Below, one piece after another: positions 1,377 to 32,104 of a DNA stretch of 49,887 nt (its first letter is position 1; each line of letters opens with the position of its first letter). The notes below the pieces were generated by a model. It was not told where the DNA came from. It did not search any database and worked only from the letters and a program-made list of their open reading frames with translations. The translations under genes and the position numbers were made by a program. Origin of the DNA: a virus; IMG/VR virus record IMGVR_UViG_3300038701_000394, positions 1 through 49,887 of that record, one strand, 5' to 3'.

Positions 1377-4300
1377 AAATCGCTCCAAACTTTCTCAGCT
1401 AATGTTAATGCTTCTTTTGCTGGTAACGTCTGCGCTGTGAGCACGTCTGTACCGTATTTAAAATAAAATCGCCGGTAAACTTCACTGTCACTCATCCCCT
1501 GTGATCTACGTGCGCCACACCAATGAGCCAGTGCTTGCCGTAAAGCTTCGTTCACTTGCAGCCGTTCACGTTGACGTTTCATTGCCGCTTTAACGCCAAT
1601 TTCCGGTGCGTGTTTCGCCTGTAATTCAGCAGCAACCTCCATCGGTGTACGGTTAGCAATTTCTATATCCCCACGCATCTGTGCCAGTGTTGCAGCGTCT
1701 AATTCGATAAGATCACCGTCAACCTGTTCAGGGAGTGAACGACCTTGTGGGGGATTCTCGAAGCCGCACTCAGGACATATTTTGTGGATACGCTCATAAA
1801 CAGCGGTACAGTGGACACATGCTTTCACAGGAATCACATCATCTGGTGTACCGCTTGATCGTTTTTCACGCCGGTCAAGAGTCCATTCTTTCGGTGAATC
1901 TGGTAAACCATGACGAACCACGTTACCCACATGATCAATAATGAGCGCGAATAATTTCCCGTCCAATGGTCTGAGAGAACGACCGAATTGCTGGACGTAG
2001 AGACCGTAAGACTGCGTGGGTCGTGCCATGCTGACAACTTCTATGGCTGGTAAATCGAACCCTTCACCGAAGAGATCAACATTGACCAACTGTAATAATT
2101 CACGGTTGCGGAATCGTCTGATGATCGCTGTACGGTCACGGTCCGGCGTCTTAGCGCTCACAACCTCGGCAGGTACGCCAGCATCATTAAACTGTGCGGC
2201 AATTTCCGTAGCTGTTTCAACGTCTGTGGCAAACGTAACACCGAGTTTACCGTTAGCTATACGCTTATAATGCTGGACAACATCACCGACAATGTGAGAT
2301 TTCCGTACCGCTGTGGTCAATTTATTCTTACTGTAATCACCTGTTGCGGTGCTAATAGTAACGTTATGCAAATCAATATCGTTTGGTGGCGCAAATATCC
2401 TGTATTCTGTTAGGAATTTATCGTTAATCAGGTCGCGCATTGAGGGACCAATGACCATCGTGTCGAACACACCGTCAGCGTGTCGCCCTAAACCTTTACC
2501 ATCGGCACGAAGCGGTGTTGCCGTCACCCCCAATCCTTTAGCGTTGGGGAACATTTTCACAGCTTGACCCCATTTATTGAACATTTCGATACCGCTCTTG
2601 CTGATGTGATGGCAATTATGGACAGTGATTCCGTTTGCTACATAGGTGTGCAACCCTTCAACTTCAATATTGTAGACATAATCACTTGTTTTATTTTCGC
2701 TGGTTCGGTCAATATCTCTTCGTTCGAGAATCGAAACACTTTCCAACCCGCACCAGTAAGCAGACGGTCTTTGCGTTGATCTTGTTCTTGTCTTTTTATC
2801 GTCCCATGACTGTTCCCGTCTGCTTCTATCGCTATTTTTAACCCTGTGTGACCACAGTCTATTTTGTAATGATTGGGGCAGCCAAGTGAGCGACCATCCG
2901 ATCCTGTTTTTACTATTAGTTGATTCACGAAACCAATATCTCCAAGCATCTCGTAGAGTTTTAATTCTGCTTCGGTAGGAGGTCTCCCGTTTCCACCTCT
3001 TACTTTCGGTTTGTGACCCATCTTTTTCAATGTCGTTGAGACTTTCTTCCTTGTTTCCGCATCTCTCATTGGGTTGTTTTTCTTCATTCGTTCTGAGGCG
3101 TATTTTTTGTTGGTCTTTGCCATTGTCTCCGAAGATACCCGCCTTCTGTATTCGTTTGAGCAATCCAGTGAGCAGTATGCTCGACCTGTTTCCTGCAAGC
3201 GTTTTATTTTCCATTTTTCGATTATTACTATCGCTTTTTGACAAATTGTACATTTCGCTGTTGTGAGCATGAATCAATACCTCATCGTCGAGTGTTAAAT
3301 TACCTGCGTCTACCCACCCTCTTTTAGTCCAGAAAGGGTGTCCTTTCGTCGATGTTATTACATGGTGTCCTTTTGTTTCTAGTCGCACCATGTGATTCGG
3401 ACTTGGATTTTTAAATAATCGGTTGATTCTACGTAACTCGTAATCGCCAGTTTCTTCATTGAACGCTGTTACTTTCTGACCTACTTTAAGTTTTTCAATT
3501 GGTGTCCCGTCCACTAATGTACCAGCGGGGAAACACTCATCGATCACCCACAACGTCACGGTATTTGCCCATTCTTTTAACTCACGATCACGTCTAACGA
3601 GTGTGTCCACACCAGCAACTGCACAACTGGCAGAAGGGTTGTAAAACGATTTGCCGCATTCCTGGTAATGGATGTCGCAGCAGAATTTGACCACGCTTTT
3701 AGGTCCGATTATTTTGTGTGGTACTTCCTCTCGGTTCAACGCTAGACTTATTTGCCCAACTAATTCCTGTCGGTGAGCGATGACAACACTAGGTTCATTG
3801 TGTCGGTGGATAGTGTTGGCGAACAGGACTGTATTATGAGTTACTGTGAAGTCACCTAACATGAACAAGTGGTCTTGGTCTATGGTGAACCCGTAATATT
3901 TACCGATGCCAACCTGCTCCACTTTTATGCCTGTAGTCAACACACTTTTGGCTTGTTTTCGGGGTGATGCTTTCAATCGTTTTAATATCACGGGTATGTC
4001 TTCCATTCCCTCCCCTGATATGGATATTCTATAGTATGTATTTGATACACCATTGTTGTAACATGTCTTCGTGCATTTTTTGACGTATGCTGCAAACCCT
4101 AATGATCTAGCAATGTAAGCTATGTCATCAGCCAGTGTTTTAATTTTCTGAATAATGTCGTAATAATTGTGATTCAAATACCCGTCACTATCTATCAGTC
4201 CAGCGAGTAATTCCAGCCTTTGTTCATTTGATCCCGTTTTATAAATCAGAGGGATATGCTTGTTGCAGATTAAGTCGTATTTCTTTAATTGCGTCAGAGT

Positions 4301-4954
4301 TTTACCTCTTTTCCAATCATTACTTATGGAATAAGTTGAGCACCTATTTTCGGTGCTTGTATCTTTAATTTGTTGTCCGGTTTGTTTAGCGAATTCATAC
4401 AGGTATTCCACTATCTCACTATCAGCGGTTGTAATGTGCGGGTGTCTCTTCGTGCCGTCACCCAACCATAGACCGAGAAAGTAAGGTGGTAGAAACTCAC
4501 TGTATTTTTTCTCGCTGAATGAACGACCGCACCTCCAACCCTTGTGAATATGTTTGAAGTATTTAGTCTTACTCATGTAATCACGAACGGAAATATTTAC
4601 TATTTCTCCTTTTCTTAGGTCGTTTCTATGCTCCCCTGTTCTTTTAAGGCTTAATATATGACTCTCATTCACCACATAAGGATCGCCCTTTATAGGTGTC
4701 ACTTTATATAGCATCTCGTGACCAGTGCATATACTCAATACCTTTCTCGGTTTGTCGTCTGGTCCACTTAGCAAGTCACCAGTTTTAATATTTTCCACGG
4801 GAGTTATTTCGCCGTTGTACATGAGTATCGGAGTACCTTCACCTAAGCATTTACCTGATCCGGTGGGCGATACAACACACACATTGCGCATCCCCTGTGA
4901 CCACGCTTCGTAAGTTTCATCCTGTACTTGTTGTTGGTATGGCCTGAGTTTCAT
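1373..4954 (-). CDS. SF2 DEAD/DEAH-type helicase precursor interrupted by two inteins
   Basis: The 1193-residue precursor reduces to a helicase of about 547 residues after removal of two inteins. Extein motifs in order: LRPYQQ (Q-motif-like), Walker A SPTGSGK/T, Ia VVIAHRQEL, II VIDE/CHH (DECH box), III VTATPLR, a second RecA-like domain, and VI QQFGRSLRP. A CxxC...CPEC zinc ribbon and a helical C-terminus follow. It resembles phage replicative or recombination helicases of the UvsW/SSL2-like group. Intein 1 splits Walker A after Lys; intein 2 splits DECH before Cys. Start ATG 4954 overlaps the upstream stop (ATGA) and has GGAG seven bases upstream; a start at 4975 is less likely. Activity requires both splicing events. 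Confidence 0.88.
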   Translation of the reverse strand: MKLRPYQQQVQDETYEAWSQGMRNVCVVSPTGSGKCLGEGTPILMYNGEITPVENIKTGDLLSGPDDKPRKVLSICTGHEMLYKVTPIKGDPYVVNESHILSLKRTGEHRNDLRKGEIVNISVRDYMSKTKYFKHIHKGWRCGRSFSEKKYSEFLPPYFLGLWLGDGTKRHPHITTADSEIVEYLYEFAKQTGQQIKDTSTENRCSTYSISNDWKRGKTLTQLKKYDLICNKHIPLIYKTGSNEQRLELLAGLIDSDGYLNHNYYDIIQKIKTLADDIAYIARSLGFAAYVKKCTKTCYNNGVSNTYYRISISGEGMEDIPVILKRLKASPRKQAKSVLTTGIKVEQVGIGKYYGFTIDQDHLFMLGDFTVTHNTVLFANTIHRHNEPSVVIAHRQELVGQISLALNREEVPHKIIGPKSVVKFCCDIHYQECGKSFYNPSASCAVAGVDTLVRRDRELKEWANTVTLWVIDECFPAGTLVDGTPIEKLKVGQKVTAFNEETGDYELRRINRLFKNPSPNHMVRLETKGHHVITSTKGHPFWTKRGWVDAGNLTLDDEVLIHAHNSEMYNLSKSDSNNRKMENKTLAGNRSSILLTGLLKRIQKAGIFGDNGKDQQKIRLRTNEEKQPNERCGNKEESLNDIEKDGSQTESKRWKRETSYRSRIKTLRDAWRYWFRESTNSKNRIGWSLTWLPQSLQNRLWSHRVKNSDRSRREQSWDDKKTRTRSTQRPSAYWCGLESVSILERRDIDRTSENKTSDYVYNIEVEGLHTYVANGITVHNCHHISKSGIEMFNKWGQAVKMFPNAKGLGVTATPLRADGKGLGRHADGVFDTMVIGPSMRDLINDKFLTEYRIFAPPNDIDLHNVTISTATGDYSKNKLTTAVRKSHIVGDVVQHYKRIANGKLGVTFATDVETATEIAAQFNDAGVPAEVVSAKTPDRDRTAIIRRFRNRELLQLVNVDLFGEGFDLPAIEVVSMARPTQSYGLYVQQFGRSLRPLDGKLFALIIDHVGNVVRHGLPDSPKEWTLDRREKRSSGTPDDVIPVKACVHCTAVYERIHKICPECGFENPPQGRSLPEQVDGDLIELDAATLAQMRGDIEIANRTPMEVAAELQAKHAPEIGVKAAMKRQRERLQVNEALRQALAHWCGARRSQGMSDSEVYRRFYFKYGTDVLTAQTLPAKEALTLAEKVWSDL
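2615..3535 (-). other. Intein 2 (307 aa), mini-intein splicing domain with an out-of-frame endonuclease gene inside, inserted in the DECH box
   Basis: It begins with Cys1 (CFPAGTLVDGTPIEKL) directly after VIDE and ends ANGITVHN before Cys+1 of CHH. Block B is ITSTKGHPFWT and block F/G is VEGLHTYVANGITVHN, so all splicing residues are present. Between them, about 195 residues in the intein frame are hydrophilic, rich in Arg, Lys, Ser and Asn, and show no endonuclease motif. That stretch coincides with the gene at 2638-3270 in another frame. The intein frame has no stop across it, so splicing could still work with this stretch as a passive insert. Confidence 0.88.
2638..3270 (-). CDS. EDxHD (Vsr-like) homing endonuclease nested out of frame inside intein 2
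   Basis: A 210-residue protein on the same strand as the helicase, in a different frame. The N-terminus has a CTIC...YCSLDC zinc-finger-like module, followed by NUMOD3-like DNA-binding helices (ASERMKKNNPM, ETRKKVSTTLKKMG). The C-terminus has the Vsr/DUF559-like nuclease core: IAIEADGNSHG, EQDQRKDRLL and GWKVFRFSNEEI, giving the E-D-x-H-D residues. GAGG lies nine bases before the ATG, so independent translation is plausible. The stop TAG falls within the intein's final splicing block. The family is known from phage introns and fractured intein genes; here the gene is wholly overprinted on the intein frame. Confidence 0.85.
   Translation of the reverse strand: MLTTAKCTICQKAIVIIEKWKIKRLQETGRAYCSLDCSNEYRRRVSSETMAKTNKKYASERMKKNNPMRDAETRKKVSTTLKKMGHKPKVRGGNGRPPTEAELKLYEMLGDIGFVNQLIVKTGSDGRSLGCPNHYKIDCGHTGLKIAIEADGNSHGTIKRQEQDQRKDRLLTGAGWKVFRFSNEEILTEPAKIKQVIMSTILKLKGCTPM
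3833..4849 (-). other. Intein 1 (339 aa) with LAGLIDADG homing endonuclease, inserted in Walker A
   Basis: It begins with Cys1 (CLGEGTPILMYNG) right after SPTGSGK and ends FTVTHN before Thr+1 of the helicase. Splicing block A is CLGEGTPI, block B is VNESHILSLK, block F is YYGFTIDQDHLFML and block G is FTVTHN. The centre has two LAGLIDADG-type motifs, FLGLWLGDGT and LLAGLIDSDGYL, as in full-length DOD-type inteins. The +1 nucleophile is Thr. The reading frame is continuous with the extein, so the endonuclease is probably made as part of the intein. Confidence 0.9.
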
Positions 4955-6585: not shown

Positions 6586-7673
6586 GCGAACACTCCATCT
6601 TACCACCGTCCGGTGCTTCCGCATGGGTTGAATGCGCTGGATGGGTAACAACGAACCAAATGTATCCTGAACCGGATACTGACGCTTCGACCGAGGGTGA
6701 TAAAGCCCATGAGTTAGCTGCGGGATTAATTGCCGATGCTGCAAAAGGTGTTTACCAGCCTTCCGACAATGAAGCGGTGAACATGTATGTCGAGTATGTG
6801 CGTGATCTGATGCAGTCAACGGGAGTATTCACGCCACACATTGAAGAACGTGTGCGAATGCCGAACATTAATGAGTTGATGTGGGGTACGGTGGATTGTT
6901 GGTTGTTCGATAAAAAAACCGTGACACTTCACGTAATCGACTTTAAGCATGGTCACGGGTTAGTTGAAGCGTTCGAGAACTGGCAGTTGATGTCATACGT
7001 GTTTGGCATATTTAATGACCTTGATGTGAACGGCGTTGATGATCAGTACATTAACGTGTGTATGACGATTGTTCAGCCCAACGGATTCCACAAAAAGGGT
7101 CCGATCCGCACATGGGAAACGAAAGCAAGTAACTTGCGTGGTTATGCTAATCGGTTAATTGCAGCAGCAGGCGCAGCGTTGATGCCCGACCCTGATACTA
7201 AGACGGGTCCACATTGCAAATATTGTCCTGCACGTCTCCATTGCGAAGCGGCGTTACGTGCTGGCAATGATTTGTATGAAGCTACTGGTAAGATTAATCC
7301 GATAGATTTATCACCGGCACAGATGGGTACTCAGTTAGCGCTTGTGAATCGTGCCATAGCTCACTTGTCATCGTTACAAACCGCACTGAATTCACAGGTC
7401 GAAAACACGATCAAACAGGGGAAAGTTGTACCAGGATTCATCACCGAACAGTCTTACGGTCGCCAGAATTGGAGCAAACCATTTGAAGAGGTGGTTATGC
7501 TTGGTGAAATGTACGATGTGAAGGTGACGAAAGACACTTTAGTTACGCCAAAACAGGCTCAGAAATTAGGTATTGACGAGTCCGTCATTATGGCATATAG
7601 TGAAAAGAAATCGACAGGCGTTAAAGTCGTTGAAGATAAAACAAATAAAGCAAAAGAGGTTTTCACACAATGA
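6582..7673 (+). CDS. DUF2800 protein, RecB-like PD-(D/E)XK nuclease
   Basis: A 363-residue protein with the DUF2800 layout. The N-terminal LPPSGASAWVECAGW (a conserved Cys in the N-terminal part) is followed by EGDKAHELAAG, the catalytic region MWGTVDCWLFD...LHVIDFKHGHG (D and E/D-x-K) and a QLMSYVFG helix. A C-terminal cysteine pair, HCKYCPARLHCEAA, would complete an AddB/Cas4-like Fe-S or zinc cluster with the N-terminal Cys. DUF2800 proteins sit beside DUF2815 single-strand-binding proteins in many phages and are thought to be recombination exonucleases, as here. It starts ATGA-coupled to the preceding gene and overlaps the next by 4 bases. Confidence 0.85.
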   Translation: MSEHSILPPSGASAWVECAGWVTTNQMYPEPDTDASTEGDKAHELAAGLIADAAKGVYQPSDNEAVNMYVEYVRDLMQSTGVFTPHIEERVRMPNINELMWGTVDCWLFDKKTVTLHVIDFKHGHGLVEAFENWQLMSYVFGIFNDLDVNGVDDQYINVCMTIVQPNGFHKKGPIRTWETKASNLRGYANRLIAAAGAALMPDPDTKTGPHCKYCPARLHCEAALRAGNDLYEATGKINPIDLSPAQMGTQLALVNRAIAHLSSLQTALNSQVENTIKQGKVVPGFITEQSYGRQNWSKPFEEVVMLGEMYDVKVTKDTLVTPKQAQKLGIDESVIMAYSEKKSTGVKVVEDKTNKAKEVFTQ

Positions 7674-8560
7674 GCGATATTTTAATTACAGGTAGATTAG
7701 TTGGTGGTCATCCAATGAGCGGTCACGCATTAGTCGATGATCGTACTAAACAACCGAAGATGCAAGCTGACGGCACTACACCACGGGTTCAATTTTACGT
7801 TGGTGTGGCAATTGCTAAAGCTGGTGAACAACACTGGAATCAAACTGAATGGGGTGCTCAAATTTGGGCGATTGGTCAAGCTGATTTCCCTAATGGTGAG
7901 TTTAACGCACCTACGTTCGCATGGAAGATCGTTGACGGTGATTCTGCGATACCAAATAAAAACGGTAATAAGCCATGTGACCGTGAAGGCTATCCTGGTC
8001 ATTGGGTGATTAATTGTGCAACCGAATTACCGATCAATTGTTTTCATGCTGGTAAATATAACCCACATGAGCAAATACAGGACAAGAACGCGATTAAACC
8101 AGGCGATTACTGTCGTGTGTTAGTGAATGTTAAAGGTAATAATCCATCACCATCACCAGGCGTTTACATGAACCCAACGATGTTTGAACTGAGTCGTGCG
8201 GGTATCGCCATCCAGTTAAGTTCTGGACCAGACGCAGCAAGCGTGTTTGGTGGTACTCAGGCGGTATTGCCACAAAACGCAGCTATCGACCCTAACGCTG
8301 GTATTGCACCAGCGGCTCCGGTTGCACCAGCGGCTCCGGTTGCACCAGCGGCTCCGGTTGCACCAGCGGCACCAGCGGCACCAGCGGCACCAGCGGCACC
8401 AGCGGCACCAGCGGCACCAGCGGCACCAGCGGCACCAGCGGCACCAGCGTACGATATGGTCACGCCTCCCAAGACTTATGATGTTGGTGGTACGCAATAC
8501 ACCGCTGAACAATTGAAAGCGGTCGGATGGACTGACGAACAGATTGCAGCGTTGGGTTAA
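7670..8560 (+). CDS. DUF2815 single-stranded DNA-binding protein with long Ala-Pro linker
   Basis: A 296-residue protein. The N-terminal 190 or so residues match DUF2815 phage SSB-like proteins (MSDILITGRLVGGHPM, VQFYVGVAIAK, GHWVINCATELPINCF, GDYCRVLVNVKGN, PGVYMNPTMFEL). A repetitive linker of APAAP units spans about residues 213-260, encoded by 9-base tandem repeats. The C-terminal tail, TYDVGGTQYTAEQLKAVGW followed by TDEQIAAL, is a typical end of phage SSBs and may contact partners. It should coat ssDNA during replication and recombination with the neighbouring DUF2800 nuclease. Linker length may vary by repeat slippage. Confidence 0.82.
   Translation: MSDILITGRLVGGHPMSGHALVDDRTKQPKMQADGTTPRVQFYVGVAIAKAGEQHWNQTEWGAQIWAIGQADFPNGEFNAPTFAWKIVDGDSAIPNKNGNKPCDREGYPGHWVINCATELPINCFHAGKYNPHEQIQDKNAIKPGDYCRVLVNVKGNNPSPSPGVYMNPTMFELSRAGIAIQLSSGPDAASVFGGTQAVLPQNAAIDPNAGIAPAAPVAPAAPVAPAAPVAPAAPAAPAAPAAPAAPAAPAAPAAPAAPAYDMVTPPKTYDVGGTQYTAEQLKAVGWTDEQIAALG
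8306..8449 (+). repeat. Tandem 9-base and 18-base repeats coding for APA linker
   Basis: Units GCACCAGCG with interspersed GCTCCGGTT (three copies), then about ten uninterrupted GCACCAGCG units. All are in frame in the SSB gene and encode Ala-Pro-Ala. The opposite strand and other frames stay open across it only because of the repeat. Confidence 0.9.
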
Positions 8561-8623
8561 TGTGGTACGGACGGGGTGACGTCCGTCCAACTCGCAATAA
8601 TGTCAAAGAGGAGTGAGTTAAAA

Positions 8624-9490: not shown

Positions 9491-9733
9491 ATGAATGAAG
9501 TAAACGTAATAAGTATGTCAGGCGGCAAAGACTCTACAGCAATGGCTTTGCTTGCTGTAGAGCGCGAAACGCCAAAAATGAATCATGAGGAAGTTCTAGC
9601 GTTTGCCAGAATGAATAAGGATAAAATTTCGCTAAAGCCAGACGCTGTTATAGCCGAGCTAAAAGAGCTAACCAAGCGATATATCGAGCGCTTTGGGACG
9701 CGGCGTGAACGATTAGAGATTCTTAACACATAA
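9491..9733 (+). CDS. Truncated PP-loop protein (80 aa), probable remnant or recombinant
   Basis: The N-terminus MNEVNVISMSGGKDSTAMAL is a perfect PP-loop of the PAPS-reductase/DndC type. After about residue 24 the expected FADTG region is absent, replaced by a helical, charged tail (HEEVLAFARMNKDKISL, ELKELTKRYIERFG). At 80 residues it is far shorter than any enzyme of the family, so ATP-pyrophosphatase activity is doubtful. AGGA lies eight bases before the ATG. The stop TAA lies inside the first arm of the attC-like structure, a typical place for a gene-cassette stop codon. Confidence 0.6.
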   Translation: MNEVNVISMSGGKDSTAMALLAVERETPKMNHEEVLAFARMNKDKISLKPDAVIAELKELTKRYIERFGTRRERLEILNT

Positions 9734-9787
9734 CCCGTAAATAAACGGCTGTGCTTTTTACAGTCCGTTTGATTTTGTTGTTATGTG
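9727..9787. repeat. attC-like imperfect palindrome (integron cassette site candidate)
   Basis: Outer arms CACATAAC (9727-9734) and GTTATGTG (9780-9787) are perfect inverted repeats. Inner arms AAACGG+CTGT (9743-9752) and ACAG+CCGTTT (9760-9763, 9765-9770) pair perfectly apart from one extra T at 9764. This is the R''/L''/L'/R' layout with an extrahelical base seen in attC sites; 61 bases is within their size range. ACATAAC/GTTATGT deviates at one position from RYYYAAC/GTTRRRY. It lacks the 3' T-run of an intrinsic terminator. Confidence 0.45.
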
Positions 9788-9812
9788 ATTTATTTATTAA
9801 GAAGGAAATATT

Positions 9813-9878
9813 ATGGAATTGCCAATGATAGTTTTTATGATTTGTTTTTTAGGTTTAGTTTATGCGGCTTCTAGGTGA
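9813..9878 (+). CDS. Micropeptide (21 aa), single membrane helix
   Basis: ATG 9813 is preceded by AAGGAA. The peptide is MELPMIVFMICFLGLVYAAS plus one Arg, almost entirely hydrophobic, consistent with one transmembrane helix. It ends three bases before the next start codon (ATG 9882). Too short for family assignment; one of several hydrophobic micropeptides in this genome. Confidence 0.4.
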   Translation: MELPMIVFMICFLGLVYAASR

Positions 9879-9881
9879 TTT

Positions 9882-10076
9882 ATGAGCATTATTGCAACAG
9901 TTTCAGGATGTACACAGGTGGGTCAAGACACATATAGAGACCGGCACGTTAGCCGAGAGTTTGACGAAAAGCGCAGTATTGCAGACATATTAAGTTGGGC
10001 TAAAAATGAGCTTGGACGAGACCATGTTAGCATTTGTGAGATACAACTTAGCGAATATACAGGCAAGAGCTTGTAA
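9882..10076 (+). CDS. Hypothetical protein (64 aa)
   Basis: A soluble 64-residue protein, MSIIATVSGCTQVGQDTYRD..., with a helical middle (IADILSWAKNEL) and VSICEIQLSEYTG at the end. No family is recognised. With the micropeptide it forms a unit bounded by the attC-like site (9727-9787) and a half-copy of the same site (10077-10099), so it looks like the content of a mobile cassette. Confidence 0.55.
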   Translation: MSIIATVSGCTQVGQDTYRDRHVSREFDEKRSIADILSWAKNELGRDHVSICEIQLSEYTGKSL

Positions 10077-10099
10077 CACATAACCCCAAGCACAACGGC
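10077..10099. repeat. Half attC-like repeat (left arm only)
   Basis: CACATAACCC at 10077 and AACGGC at 10094-10099 match the R'' and L'' part of the 9727 site at identical spacing (23 bases, about 17 matching). No GTTATGTG arm follows. A different hairpin, GTAGCGC...GCGCTAC, comes next. It may be a truncated cassette boundary. Confidence 0.4.
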
Positions 10100-10164
10100 A
10101 AGCGTAGCGCGTCCACTGATGCTAGTTTTTATGCGCTACATTACCTACAAAGTGAGAAATTAGA

Positions 10165-10461
10165 ATGACTGAACAAGCTATTGAAAAAGAGATTCAAGAA
10201 AAGAACTTAAACGCACCACGTTTAACTCCTGACTTGATTGATGCAGCGATTAAAGACGAGGATTACCATGTATTTGAAAAGACCTGCTTGACAGTGTGCT
10301 GTTTGACATTGCGCAATGGCTTTACTGTAACGGGTGAAAGCGCGTGTGCAAGCCCTGAAAATTTTGATGCCGAAATAGGCAGAAAGATTGCGCGTGAAAA
10401 TGCTCGTAATAAGATTTGGATGCTTGAAGGCTACCTGCTTAAAGAAAAACTAGCAGCCTAG
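10165..10461 (+). CDS. N4 gp49 / Sf6 gp66-like family protein
   Basis: A 98-residue protein: TPDLIDAAIKDEDYHVFEKT, LTVCCLTLRNGFTVTGESAC, SPENFDAEIGRKIARENARN and IWMLEGYLLKEKLA. This is the conserved layout of the phage N4 gp49/Sf6 gp66 family, present in many gammaproteobacterial phages and prophages and of unknown function. It is the last gene of the accessory insert. The family is complete in length here. Confidence 0.8.
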   Translation: MTEQAIEKEIQEKNLNAPRLTPDLIDAAIKDEDYHVFEKTCLTVCCLTLRNGFTVTGESACASPENFDAEIGRKIARENARNKIWMLEGYLLKEKLAA

Positions 10462-10668
10462 CTTTGCGCTGCTTACATAGGGCGCATAACACTGCATTAG
10501 AAGGAATCCGCATAACACCCTAAAAAGCGGATTCCGTATAAATCTAATTGCTGTCGAAAAAGAGAGTAAGAATTATGAAGCTAGTAGACTAAAGGTGCGC
10601 ACCGAAGGTAGGTCACTGTATAACGGTAGTGCGGGTTCGCTTCTTCCATTAACTAACAGGAGTTAAAT
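10462..10668 (+). other. Intergenic region with hairpin and palindrome
   Basis: No gene seen. GGAATCCGC (10503-10511) and GCGGATTCC (10527-10535) form a 9-base-pair hairpin without a T-run, and GCATAAC occurs twice nearby. A perfect palindrome GGTGCGCACC lies at 10594-10603. AGGAG just before 10669 is the ribosome binding site of the MazG-like gene. It marks the right edge of the accessory insert. Confidence 0.5.
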
Positions 10669-17828: not shown

Positions 17829-18754
17829 TATGTTAAACCTTCCACTTCAATTGTTGCGGGTGAACTTACGGGATCACGGAATACTAAATCGAAATCTCGA
17901 TAGTAACCGTAGACGATTGTCGCACCGTATTCTTCTGACCCAATCCACGTCACGGGCGTTGTGCGTAAATTGGCTAATAAATTCTGTATATAACTAATTC
18001 TATTCGTCTGCACATGGACATCATAGCTTGCAATCTTACTATAACCACGCTGGACCACAATCGGTCTACCGTATGCGTCAAGTTCCTTACGACTATAGTC
18101 AAGTATACCAACACCTGAACCATTTTCTGCGATACCTAACACCCGTTGATAACCAAGCGTTAATAAACCACATGCCGCTGTACCGGCTGGTGCGTTAATG
18201 GTCACAATGACATCGGCTGTGCTGTACGCCGGTAAATCGAGTAACGCTATGTCAGACTTAGTTTCAATCGGATTAAAATAATATTCATACCAGTCGTTGA
18301 TGCCTTCGTTACTATTCAGCGATACAGTGGTGTCATAAACAATCCCATCAATAGGATCATCCATCTGCACTTGCACCTCAATACCAGCGAGGTTAAACAA
18401 CGCGATGCCGTTAATCACTTCACCAGGCGTTATCGTCACGGTGATTGAAGTTGCTTGTTCGGTACGGTCGCTGATCTGATCTGAGAACATCGCCCATGTA
18501 TTCGTAGCACTAACCCTGATCCAGTACGCGCCTATGCCAGTATTCGGATCAACATCGACGGTCGGTTTATTATTCGCGTCACTGGTGTGAGCCTGAACAC
18601 ACTCATACAATGTATGCACGTTCGGTGTCGTTATCTGACGTTGATTACCCACGCTGTAAGACTGCGATAATGCCCAATCTGGATTATCAGTTTCAGGTAC
18701 ATCGGTAGCCGTGAGCGTTGTATCGTCTATCAGCGTAGGTACAATAATTTTCAT
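17828..18754 (-). CDS. Tail tip protein with carbohydrate-binding-like N-terminus
   Basis: A 308-residue protein placed between the tape measure and the fibre, the usual position of distal tail or baseplate proteins. The N-terminal [20 protein letters not shown]...GAYWIRVS resembles the small carbohydrate-binding modules in phage tail proteins (Y..G..V.......Y). The middle is beta-rich with [18 protein letters not shown]. The C-terminus ([16 protein letters not shown]) resembles siphophage minor tail proteins. It overlaps neighbours by one base on each side (TAATG), indicating coupled translation. Confidence 0.6.
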
Positions 18755-21700
18755 TACACAACCTCAACGTCTTGCGTGTCACGTAGATTAGGTAAACCAT
18801 CACCTTCCCAACGATCAAGGCGTTTCGCAGTCTTATTACTACTACGTGCGATAGCTAACAACACCTGGTTCATCTCGTTTCGTAACTGTGAAATTTGATC
18901 TGCCACTGAATCACCCGACAACGCACTCATTAAATCATTATTATTGATTATACGCGATGGTCCGGTTAATTCTAGTTCTGGTCCTTCTTCACCCACAATC
19001 CGCATACCACCAGAGTGAGTACCACCATCTGCGAAAGTGGCGATTTGATCCGCTTTAGGTACACCAATGCCGCCCAAGCCGGTTGTATCAATATTCAATC
19101 CGTATGGATTCGTTGGGTCAGTGACCACAGGTTCAGATGCCGGTGCGGGTGCCAACAACTGCATGGACGCGCTCATTGCGTCAGACTGCGCGGTGTCCAC
19201 AGGTTCTTCACTAGGTATTTCAACAACCTCAGTGTTGGACTCTGCAATTTGTTGCTCTAATGCTTGTCTCGCTTGACGTTCGGCATTCAACGCAGAACCA
19301 AACGCACTCACCGCATTCTCAACCGATTGCACACTGGTGTCGATACCGCGCAATGCGTTCAACTGATCTTCTGCATTTTGAAGTATGAGATCAAGACGAG
19401 CCATTTCTTCATTGAACTCTTGCTCCATCTTAGCAAGTTCGTTCTCAGCACGTAGCTCAGCAGCCGCTATTGATCGCTCAACATTCGTATCATTCGCTGC
19501 AATCGCTCGATCAGTGTCATCCTTAGCTTCGTCTATCGCTCGTTTAGCTTCGTCTTTAATCGCCTGCGTTTGCTCAGTTAACCGCTCAATTGTGATTTCA
19601 GCATCGGTTTTCTGACTCTCGCCTGAGTCTTCCAACTGATCAAGTACAGAACGAGTGACACCGACTTGTCGCCTGTAATCTTCACCAGTGGCGAAATCTT
19701 CCATCGTGAAGTTAGACGCAACACCAGCCGCATCGCCCGTACCAGTGAGATCACCAGTCACAAGGGCGTTTTGTAGCATTGCTAACGCTGTTGCACGTCT
19801 TCTTTCGCCGCTGACAGCCTTCTCGTTCATGTCTTCGAGCGTAGCAGTGATGCCGTTCAACTCTTTGGTAATCGCTTTAAGACCGTCTTTCGCAGCGTTT
19901 AACGCAATCTTATTAGCGTTTAGACGTGCTTTCTCTTCATCTTTAATTGCGGTGATACGATCAGCACCAGCGGACTTAATCGCTGTTGCCCTGGATTTAC
20001 CAGCCGCTTTAATGTCGATGATTTCATTCTTGAGTTGTTCTTTACGCTCGCTCGTGGCGATGTCATATTCTTCCTTGATACCAGCACGTTCAGCTTCAAC
20101 ACTCGAACGAACACCGGCAAGTGCAGAATCAGCCGCACTCGCAGCCGCATCCAACGCACGTTGCGCAATCGTTTCAAGGTGTGAATAGTATTGATCAGCC
20201 ATTGAAGTAACGCTTATGAACGTGTCAATCGCTTCACGACCTGATTCAGTGTTGGCATCTAACGTACCAGCAAGCGCCCACATTTCATTGCGTGTGTTAG
20301 GCAACGTGATACCAACCTCACCAAGCGATTCAGCGAGATCATTAGATAGCATCTCAAACTGCGCAACTTCCGGTGCAAACGCCTGGATGAATCCACTGGC
20401 GCGATCCGCAAGTGTTTCAAACCATTCACCGAGGTCTTCAACCGCATCAGTTGCTTCTTCAGTGGACTCTTTGGTCGAATCAAGAAGATTAATGTATTCA
20501 AGCATTGGACCCTGAATATCTAGCAGAGTAGCAATATTCTCTCTACCCGCTTCATCCAGTGCTTCCATCTCTGCCATTAAGTTAGCGAACTCTTGGCGTG
20601 TCGTTGGCAACGTGTCAGTGATGCCACTTAGTGCGTCCGTTAATCGCGCACCTTGTAGGTCAAGTTGATCAGCAGCGGTTAAGAAGTTCTTCTCAAAGAA
20701 TGACATTTTTTGCGTAAATGCTTCAATGCCGCCTGACTTCTGAACCAGATCGTCAGCCGCTTGTACAAGTAACTCAGTGGGTACGGTCATTCTCGCAATC
20801 GCGTCACCTAACGGGTGTATCGCTACTAATGCGGGACCCCACACTTCACCCATTGTTTCAGCAACTTCAAACCCTAAGACATTGAACGCTTCTTTACCTA
20901 GCTCAAAACTTGTAGCTAATCTGGTCAACGCTTCCGCTGGTTCTTCACCAGCCTGCACAAGTTCATCAAGATAAGGGACAACATTACCAGCAAGATCATT
21001 AAATACTTCACTGAACAACGCCTGGAACTCAGCCGTCATTTCGTCAGCATCCATGTCTTGCAGACTAAGCTTCTGACCTTCAATCAAGGTGCTACTGATC
21101 GCTTCTTGTATGGCTGACTGATCAATACCTAACGCCTCAGCACCAGCCGTAACAGTAGTCACAATGCCGTCTAGGACGTTCGCAAAGTCATCATTCAAAT
21201 CTTGACCTAGATCAACTCCTATACTTGTAAACTCGTCTGAACCGAATGATCGACGTTTCTGCACGTCAACAAACGCACCGATCATCGTATCATCAATTAT
21301 TTCACCCAGTGGTCCACCAAGTAATTCAATACCCTTATCAACAACTCGCGTCCTACCGGCACCCACATCAGCAAATACTTGTTGCGCGATGTCATCAAAC
21401 AGATCATTACCACTCGGAATATCTAAGTCAAAACCAAGTATAGTAGTCCTGCCTCTTAATTCCTCTGAGTCAAAATCCATCAACTCAGAGAAAGTACCCT
21501 TCAAGAATTCTGTACTGAACCCTGTGATCGACTCCGTAACACCTTCCAACGCTCGCAACATGCTTGTGTTGATATTCACAAGGGTGTCTGTCGCACTTGC
21601 TATCATCTCATTCGATGTGACTATTGAATCAGCTTTCTCATTGATACTACCAAGTACATCACCAGTACCTTGATCTTCCTGTCTTTCGTCTGCCAGGTTG

Positions 21701-25716: not shown

Positions 25717-25728
25717 TAGACCTGCCTC

Positions 25729-26112
25729 CTATGAAAAGTTTCTATAACGAATACTTACTGGTGTAATTTGCCAGTTAGCATCATAAAATGACGGGCCAAT
25801 ACTGCCTGACCTGTCGATACACACATTGTCAAGTTGCAGGTTGCGGGGGAACCCTTCAAGGATAGTCTTAGCGTAATCCAACGCCAAAATTTCACCGGAC
25901 CCTTTCTCGACAAATATCGAAACCTGGAAGATTCCAGATTCCTTGTCTGTGGTCCGAAGACCTACAGGCATTGTGTCACTTGGTAAAACGTGCGGTACGA
26001 TATGTTCATCAGTCGGGGTACTCGCACCAACATTCGGATAATAGATCACAGGGAGTCCGACAAGGGACTTCAAACGATCTAACAGCGATATTTTAATGTC
26101 ATTAAGAGCCAT
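25729..26112 (-). CDS. DUF4128-like tail terminator protein
   Basis: A 127-residue protein starting at MALNDIKISLLDRLKSLVG (ATG 26112); the longer frame to 26202 would lie inside the previous gene. VIYYPNVGASTPTDEHIVPH, GIFQVSIFVEKGSGE and DRSGSIGPSFYDANWQITPV match the DUF4128/tail-terminator type found just before the tail tube. It would cap the tail tube and join it to the head. Confidence 0.7.
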   Translation of the reverse strand: MALNDIKISLLDRLKSLVGLPVIYYPNVGASTPTDEHIVPHVLPSDTMPVGLRTTDKESGIFQVSIFVEKGSGEILALDYAKTILEGFPRNLQLDNVCIDRSGSIGPSFYDANWQITPVSIRYRNFS

Positions 26113-27300: not shown

Positions 27301-28104
27301 TTAACTCACCTGTGCCTTGTCATACATTATGGTGCGAATGGTCAACCCGCCGGTATTCGGTACAATGTTATACAACCACCACGTCAGATCATTTAATATA
27401 ACATTGTGAATGGTCTTATCACTCGCTTCAACAAATGTTTCGATGTCAGTCTTATTAGCTTTAAGCCAATCTCTACCAAGCTGTAAAATTTCTTCGTCAG
27501 TCTTGCCGGTGACGGTCATCTGCAACATCCCAATCAGAGTCAGACTTAAATCATTAACGATATTCTGTCTTCTGCGTCTACCTTCCTCGATTGACTCTTG
27601 TTCATTATAGTATTTAATCAAGTCTTTTGTTTCTTCGGCAATAGAACCATCATTAAGATAATAAGCAATTTTACTATCACGTCTGAGACAGAAACCACTT
27701 GAATCCCGATACCATGTGAACGACACCTCTAACACTGGCGTATCGTAATTAACACCGTCACTGTTCGCATGATATACGGTCTTCTTTAATTCACCACGAA
27801 CGATTGTGTGGACTGGATGAAGACGAGCTATTAAACCAGTCTTATAATTGATAAACCCTGGGAAAACTGTCTCATCAAACGTATCAGCCACATGGTCATA
27901 AATACGGTAGGTTCTAATAGTTGCATCGTGAGTAGCCACAATGTCATCGAAGAGATTGCGGTCAGCAGTGGAAAAACCTTCGGTGAAAACGGCAACGGTT
28001 CTATCAGAAGTAACAATAACGCCTTCGAACGTGTCAGGGAATGATAATTCAAGCGCCCTATGCAACTCTTCGGGGTTTATTTCTCGTTCGATTAAGTATT
28101 CCAT
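27301..28104 (-). CDS. Hypothetical structural-region protein (267 aa)
   Basis: No family recognised. The first 60 residues are beta-rich (FEGVIVTSDRTVAVFTEGFS), the middle has YHANSDGVNYDTPVLEVSFT and WYRDSSGFCLRRDSKIAYYL, and the C-terminus is helical (DLIKYYNEQESIEEGRRRR; TDEEILQLGRDWLKANKTDI). Because it lies between capsid-decoration-type genes and connectors, it is probably a minor virion or assembly protein. It overlaps the previous gene by 13 bases. Confidence 0.6.
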   Translation of the reverse strand: MEYLIEREINPEELHRALELSFPDTFEGVIVTSDRTVAVFTEGFSTADRNLFDDIVATHDATIRTYRIYDHVADTFDETVFPGFINYKTGLIARLHPVHTIVRGELKKTVYHANSDGVNYDTPVLEVSFTWYRDSSGFCLRRDSKIAYYLNDGSIAEETKDLIKYYNEQESIEEGRRRRQNIVNDLSLTLIGMLQMTVTGKTDEEILQLGRDWLKANKTDIETFVEASDKTIHNVILNDLTWWLYNIVPNTGGLTIRTIMYDKAQVS

Positions 28105-31036: not shown

Positions 31037-32104
31037 TTAACCCAAGTCTTGGGCGAATAACGCACACTTGTTACCGAAGTAATCTGAGCGTACTTCAAAA
31101 CCGATAGCACCCCAAACCGCAAACTCATAGTTAGAGTTATAAACCGGACGAGGCATAGCCACAGTGTTAACAGCCATACCAACAATTGGACGAACCAAGT
31201 TGTCAGATAGCGGAACTGCCATGAACTCGTTACCGCTCAACTTAGAACTGATCTTAATTGAAGCAACGCCGTTCAACTGTGCAAGACGGTTTGTGATCTT
31301 CTCAGAGCTGTAAGACTCAGAAGAATTACGCTCGAAGTTAGACGCCATCTCGCGAGAGATATAGTAAGTCGCTTCTTTCTCACACTTGTTAGTGATCCAA
31401 AGAATATCGCGAACCAACTTAAACGCAGCTTCGATTTCAGCATAAGTCTTAGTCGTGTCTGTGAAGTCAAAATTGATACCAGAAGCACCAATGTTAGCTT
31501 GTGCAACACGGTTATCATTACGCATACCAGCCCAACTAATACCGTCAATCGTAATCAATTGACCTTTAGCGTCACGGTGTCCGTCAAGGAACTGATCAAT
31601 AACGTGGCGTCTGATAGATGCAACACATTCGCGCTGATCATCAATCAATGCGTCAAAACCTTCGGAGCTTTGGGCATTCCACTCACGCCAGTTGCGACCG
31701 AAACCAGTGTCATGAATAGGTACGATCGACCCATCATAATCAAACTCGGTTTGATCCATCTTGACGCCAATTTGACCCGTCATGCTGGTTTGAACTTTAC
31801 CTGCATCAGATGCACGTCTGAACTTGTGAGTCAGCTTACCGATACTCACAGAACGAGACAAAGGCAACAAATCATTCAGGATGGTATCACCATCGTCTGA
31901 TCTGAAACGCTGGACTGTCACGTTGTCGAACTCTTGGTAAACGTCTTGAGGGATTAAACCTTCGTTACCGACCATACCAGATCGACGCAATACGTCAGCG
32001 TGTGCTTCTTCATTAAACATGTAACCGTCACGCGCACGAACAACTTCCTGCCACTGTTCTTTGCCTGCGCGACTATTACCGATAATAGCTTCTTGGAAAA
32101 TCAT
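31037..32104 (-). CDS. Major capsid protein (HK97-fold type)
   Basis: A 355-residue protein directly downstream of a decoration-type protein and the protease-scaffold. DGYMFNEEAHADVLRRSGMV, PQDVYQEFDNVTVQRFRSDD, GFGRNWREWNAQSSEGFDAL and a C-terminal FAVWGAIGFEVRSDYFGNKC follow the pattern of DUF6260-like/HK97-fold capsid proteins. Length is normal for unprocessed versions. AGGAG precedes the ATG. Identification rests on motifs and on gene order (portal, morphogenesis, protease/scaffold, decoration, capsid). Confidence 0.82.
   Translation of the reverse strand: MIFQEAIIGNSRAGKEQWQEVVRARDGYMFNEEAHADVLRRSGMVGNEGLIPQDVYQEFDNVTVQRFRSDDGDTILNDLLPLSRSVSIGKLTHKFRRASDAGKVQTSMTGQIGVKMDQTEFDYDGSIVPIHDTGFGRNWREWNAQSSEGFDALIDDQRECVASIRRHVIDQFLDGHRDAKGQLITIDGISWAGMRNDNRVAQANIGASGINFDFTDTTKTYAEIEAAFKLVRDILWITNKCEKEATYYISREMASNFERNSSESYSSEKITNRLAQLNGVASIKISSKLSGNEFMAVPLSDNLVRPIVGMAVNTVAMPRPVYNSNYEFAVWGAIGFEVRSDYFGNKCALFAQDLG

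Follow-up and report, generated by a model that had tools for sequence, protein, structure and literature searches.

The DNA analysed here, a viral contig 49,887 bases long, is called the window throughout. It encodes a terminase, a portal, a tape measure protein and a primase; the closest match to its polymerase is in Edwardsiella phage MSW-3 (55%), and its portal comes closest to those of Aeromonas phages (37-38%). Small genes on the plus strand are interspersed with two attC sites, 350 bp apart, whose top strands are both on the minus strand. Site 1 (9728-9786) is intact and is recognized by its fold, an attC grammar, a PSSM and covariance models; site 2 (10078-10134) is decayed, folds weakly, and is recognized by a covariance model and by homology to an attC at positions 4506-4582 of locus L002. 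An 80-aa ORF (9491-9733, plus strand) lies to the left of site 1 and ends on a TAA stop (9731-9733), formed by the R' core TTA read in reverse complement. The first 25-30 residues of this ORF are PAPS reductase-like (SGGKDSTAMALL) and are followed by unrelated sequence; it resembles a truncated reductase gene fused to another reading frame. Farther upstream, a low-complexity Ala-Pro-Ala repeat (8290-8450) occupies the C-terminal part of an ssDNA-binding protein gene (7670-8560).

The 350-nt spacing of the sites, together with the G|TT rule (PMC9892861), delimits an inferred gene cassette of 350 bp from one R' cut to the next (cassette 1, 9734-10083, minus strand). It contains attC site 1 plus genes on the opposite, plus strand: a short ORF of 21 codons (9813-9878, MELPMIVFMICFLGLVYAASR), a possible membrane peptide for which the only support is a weak reading of the sequence, and a 64-aa ORF (9882-10076), for which searches returned no family and no confirmed relative. 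The gp49 gene (PF13876, N4 gp49/Sf6 gene 66; 10165-10461, plus strand) would be the payload of an inferred cassette 2 at about 10084-10490. The non-coding end of the gp49 segment (10465-10491, minus strand) is identical to that of another phage contig, G001, through a GCATAAC box (R' GTTATGC on the minus strand, 10491-10485); no complete attC and no covariance-model match were found in this part of the window.

Read along its top (minus) strand, site 1 consists of R'' ACATAAC (9786-9780), L'', the loop, L' and R' GTTATGT (9734-9728). The R boxes are complementary at 7/7 pairs with the AAC and GTT cores present, unpaired spacers of 4 nt each separate them from the second, inner stem, and the L-stem geometry is that of bacterial attC, with 9/10 pairs formed. 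On the plus strand, the inner stem is broken by two extrahelical bases, T9764 and G9771; L'' has its extrahelical C opposite G9771. Because both of these bases are in the right arm of the plus strand, the attC top strand is assigned to minus. As single-stranded DNA, the segment 9724-9790 folds with -13.9 (plus) and -14.2 (minus) kcal/mol, a z-score of about -5 to -5.5, and 0/200 shuffles fold as well. R' GTTATGT is one base off the core form GTTRRRY, yet the ACATAAC/GTTATGT box is common in genuine attC sites of Vibrio, Pseudoalteromonas and Oceanimonas. Sites of the window type often have GG, not GC, preceding R'. By sequence and structure, site 1 is a genuine integron attC. Cleavage is inferred from the sequence to fall at G|TT, between 9734 and 9733, and the site is predicted to be still active.

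The original prediction, made without database searches, placed an attC-like hairpin with ACATAAC/GTTATGT arms at 9727-9787, and the hairpin, its arms and its spacing held. Its single extrahelical base did not, there being two, and its deviating arm base held only in part, as a departure from the GTTRRRY consensus that is common in real attC sites. It also described a second left half after the next gene: the position held, but the incomplete half-site is in fact full-length and decayed.

Several detection methods with separate controls identify site 1. A strict attC grammar was defined as a 7-bp R stem with AAC/GTT, a spacer, and an L stem whose left arm, on the top strand, has a single extra base. 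Across both strands of the whole 50 kb, it gave a single match at a score of >=17, namely site 1 (score 22, top strand minus). No match at >=20 occurred in 60 dinucleotide shuffles of the window and none at >=22 in 690 kb of other phage DNA, where one reached 21.25; matches of >=18 in bacterial integron loci scored up to 24, and 16/21 were on the expected strand. A PSSM was built from 43 bacterial attC sites gathered from integrons located via their integrase. It oriented 43/43 sites correctly in leave-one-out, and its sole match in the window was site 1 (29.3 on minus vs 7.0 on plus). A combined score of >=22 was absent from 833 kb of control phage loci.

Two covariance models were constructed: R1 from 18 phage attC sites, the window excluded, and R2 from the trimmed common core of 30 bacterial sites. 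Poor alignment ruled out a model based on bacterial sites left untrimmed. R1 matches site 1 at 39.1 bits (E=1.2e-7) and site 2 at 26.8 bits (E=2.1e-4). Both matches are on minus, and the rest of the window gives none up to E=10; most sites of the training set outscore site 1. R2 matches site 1 alone in the window (E=1.1e-3 in 433 kb). R1 also recovers the attC sites of known bacterial integrons, 19/19 on the expected strand, and finds four sites in Pseudoalteromonas phage PH101. In 549 kb of control phage loci, its sole match was a gp49 phage contig, L007, which carries an array of its own. The phage training sites were initially chosen by patterns and scores, and R1 is thus not wholly independent of the attC idea; R2, and the crossover of R1 to bacterial integrons, are stronger tests than R1 on the window. 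The stems of the phage attC sites covary. A search with an attC covariance model had been the check proposed for the prediction, and the prediction passed it: models match at the two sites and at no other position of the window. Three other searches were negative: blastn of the attC query against plasmids and phages gave no match, the hairpin region matched no Rfam family, and the exact pattern of the repeated left half was not found in viral contigs.

Site 2 is a recognizable decayed attC, complete rather than half. Its alignment to the covariance model is full-length (10078-10134, minus strand). Its R' GTTATGT (10084-10078) is intact, and its R'' is mutated to GCATAAA (10134-10128), in which the AAC core is lost (AAA). 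The site looks decayed because it folds no better than shuffles; with the R'' core lost as well, it is probably impaired, though recombination was not tested. The stretch 10485-10541 was weighed as a third attC but rejected, since only the box remains, without a covariance-model match. Directly past the gp49 segment, at 10497-10541, is a strong inverted repeat, GGAATCCGC ... GCGGATTCC, with a CGCATAACACC box; it may be a remnant of another attC, or a terminator.

The chromosomal integrons of gammaproteobacteria (Vibrio, Shewanella, Pseudoalteromonas, Oceanimonas) have R boxes, spacer, L-stem geometry and extrahelical base as in the window. They differ in having an integrase at the head of the array and genes in the sense of the attC top strand. 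The gene next to R'' was on the top strand in 50/53 called genes of bacterial integrons and opposite in 3, whereas in phage arrays, including that of PH101, it is mostly on the strand opposite the attC top. Some gene calls in these counts are ambiguous short ORFs, and the exceptions among the phages are, in our judgement, mainly weak antisense ORFs. The window follows the phage arrangement: both attC tops are on minus and the neighboring genes on plus. It therefore fails the standard criterion for a bacterial cassette, by which the gene shares the strand of the attC top and precedes its own attC. Stop codons in or beside the left arms had been likened to those of gene cassettes; the attC polarity is actually opposite to that of the genes.

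A cleaner test of polarity asked how often the TAA within NNNTAAC, the reverse complement of R', closes an ORF of >=40 codons, as it does for the ORF at 9491-9733. This was so at 19/41 phage sites and 1/44 bacterial sites; the other two reading phases gave 6 and 0 in phages. Reversed polarity is seen in arrays of a number of unrelated phages, among them the published PH101. It was not reported in the open-access literature searched, subscription papers and preprints being outside the scope.

The other phage arrays were reached by pattern scans of viral contigs for sites like site 1 and like those of G001, so their spread across phages is search-driven and not an unbiased census. A palindrome pattern matched four viral contigs, from which only G001 was taken forward as attC-bearing; the same scan gave a possible site in L085. 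R1 finds several sites each in G001 (hallmark gene head-tail adaptor phrog_332), G005/G006 (G005 with tail protein phrog_4271 and DnaB), G007 and G009 (portal phrog_21 with integrase) and G008 (portal phrog_156). Not all of these lineages are independent: G007 is closely related to G009, and tail genes are common to G007 and G001. Most other phage loci with gp49 or the pyrophosphatase lack an attC-like element. In the gp49 phage contig L007, an attC array (1884-1970 and 3463-3520) adjoins gp49 without bracketing it.

Evidence for cassette movement comes mainly from the sister phages G007 and G009. Their common flanks are 97.6%, 99% and 95% identical, and the cassettes between the flanks differ. 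One cassette of ~355 bp is 95.3% identical in the two phages and is placed in a different array in each. Its alignment begins at GTTAT and ends at GTTAT, and the sequence outside is unrelated. Homology thus breaks exactly at the cassette boundaries, at R' boxes, which is the outcome expected from a cut at G|TT of R'; recombination itself was not tested. The window and the otherwise unrelated G001 have a single protein, gp49 (86%), and a single DNA stretch (10179-10491 of the window) in common. The last 28 nt of this stretch are non-coding and identical and end at an R box, where homology stops. The left boundary of the gp49 exchange is unresolved because the attC sites upstream of the two copies differ. 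Searches with the pyrophosphatase gene for a close relative whose site is empty gave nothing syntenic, and no close relative of the window phage was identified in which the site is empty or swapped. Cassette movement is therefore shown in other phages and not in the window phage.

No match to an integron integrase (TIGR02249) was found in the window record, which may be incomplete. A pair of attC sites without an integron integrase makes the region a two-site CALIN in a tailed phage. Most likely it is a small integrase-less gene-cassette array in the early region of the genome, shuffled via a host integrase, the recombination being inferred. The proposed mechanism is as follows: i) in single-stranded phage DNA, the plus strand at site 1, which is the attC bottom strand, would fold; ii) an integron integrase supplied in trans by the host would bind the folded site and cut at G|TT of R'; iii) cassettes of about 200-500 bp would be inserted, lost or shuffled; and iv) the genes would be read from phage operon promoters and not from the usual integron promoter, because each gene is antisense to its attC. 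The first three cassette bases (TTA) would often double as the TAA stop of a gene.

Phages carrying integron cassettes had been called rare in the original prediction; CALINs in phages have already been published. In 2023, Qi et al. (PMC9892861) described 17 of them and found that 5/6 tested attC sites of virulent phages recombine with attI1 (IntI1-active), two of the assayed sites being from PH101. Like the window, PH101 is a tailed phage that lacks an integrase and has small hypothetical genes bounded by at least two attC sites; the PH101 sites score like site 1. The cassettes of PH101 and of Tetrasphaera phage TJE1 were described in that study as same-direction, typical of bacterial arrays. 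In the present strand analysis, the PH101 sites instead sit opposite to the annotated genes. TJE1, an actinobacterial phage whose CALIN is also found by R1, does differ from the window, with annotated genes on the attC top strand and hence bacterial polarity. Reversed gene polarity, R'-core stops and phage-to-phage cassette exchange, none of which was reported by Qi et al., are apparently new; the presence of CALINs in phages is not.

Three other explanations were considered. The best surviving is that the sites are an attC remnant: part of a host integron array, taken up a single time by illegitimate recombination, that is now an immobile fossil. This remains possible: site 2 folds poorly and lacks the R'' core, no complete attC accompanies the third box near 10485, and Qi et al. 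likewise propose illegitimate capture. Against it, site 1 is intact at all tested positions, captured bacterial cassettes should keep bacterial polarity whereas that of the window is reversed, and other phages with similar sites show cassette exchange. The second explanation, that phage recombinases swap the cassettes by ordinary homologous recombination at the repeated hairpins, without an integron integrase, is unlikely. G007 and G001 have near-identical tail genes, hence recombine, and the array repeats supply homology. However, the G007/G009 breakpoint lies beside differing attC sites with only about 5 nt (GTTAT) common on the outer side, and homologous recombination would tend to place breaks within longer common stretches. 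The third, that the hairpins are transcription terminators or intergenic RNA regulatory stems, draws on their position between co-directional genes, a weak terminator-like pattern at 9747-9765 and the view that attC sites are weak terminators (PMC9892861), but is very unlikely: no Rfam family was matched, the conserved boxes and extrahelical base agree with those of bacterial attC, the model also recovers sites in real integrons, the element is missing from most gp49 phages, and cassette-exact homology breaks would be left unexplained. The prediction would have been refuted had syntenic phages carried this hairpin as a plain terminator; this did not materialize, as most other phage loci with gp49 or the pyrophosphatase lack it. 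The attC interpretation is supported overall, with its polarity and second site corrected.

The preferred reading, a cassette array shuffled via host integrases, can be taken further. In a bolder form, which could as easily prove wrong as right, unrelated tailed phages keep a circulating pool of reverse-polarity cassettes that are shuffled in trans by host integron integrases. Bacterial integrons would then be a gene-swapping service for phages, with genes silent from the integron promoter. Phage attC sites were previously known from few genomes, and similar sites are now seen between small co-directional genes in several unrelated phages. The reversed genes, with at least one clean exchange between related phages, point to a distinct phage cassette pool. 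Such arrays offer a handle on two questions: where new cassettes originate and how phages gain fast-changing small genes.

Run across 369 genomes of the class of a Pseudoalteromonas genome, the phage attC model matched a single one, G212; the host was not identified. G212 (loci L220, L221) has an integron with a truncated integrase and attC sites that fit the phage model well, in ordinary polarity. A second repeat type, GTTCAACG...GATGAACG, occurs in G001, G007 and G009 in ambiguous orientation: the PSSM orients several copies with the genes, and the exchange breakpoints use the box on the other side. This second, attC-like repeat (GTTCAACG..GCGAGG..GATGAACGTAGTGTTAT) is the more conserved one and is found in G001 (27543-27604 and 31598-31659), G007 (25728-25789) and G009 (10437-10497 and 20792-20853); one copy is at the edge of a flank common to G007 and G009, and the repeat may serve as an array anchor. 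Duplicated cassette genes are present inside a single phage array in G005 (6989-7165 and 8310-8567) and in G008 (18074-18244 and 19473-19643).
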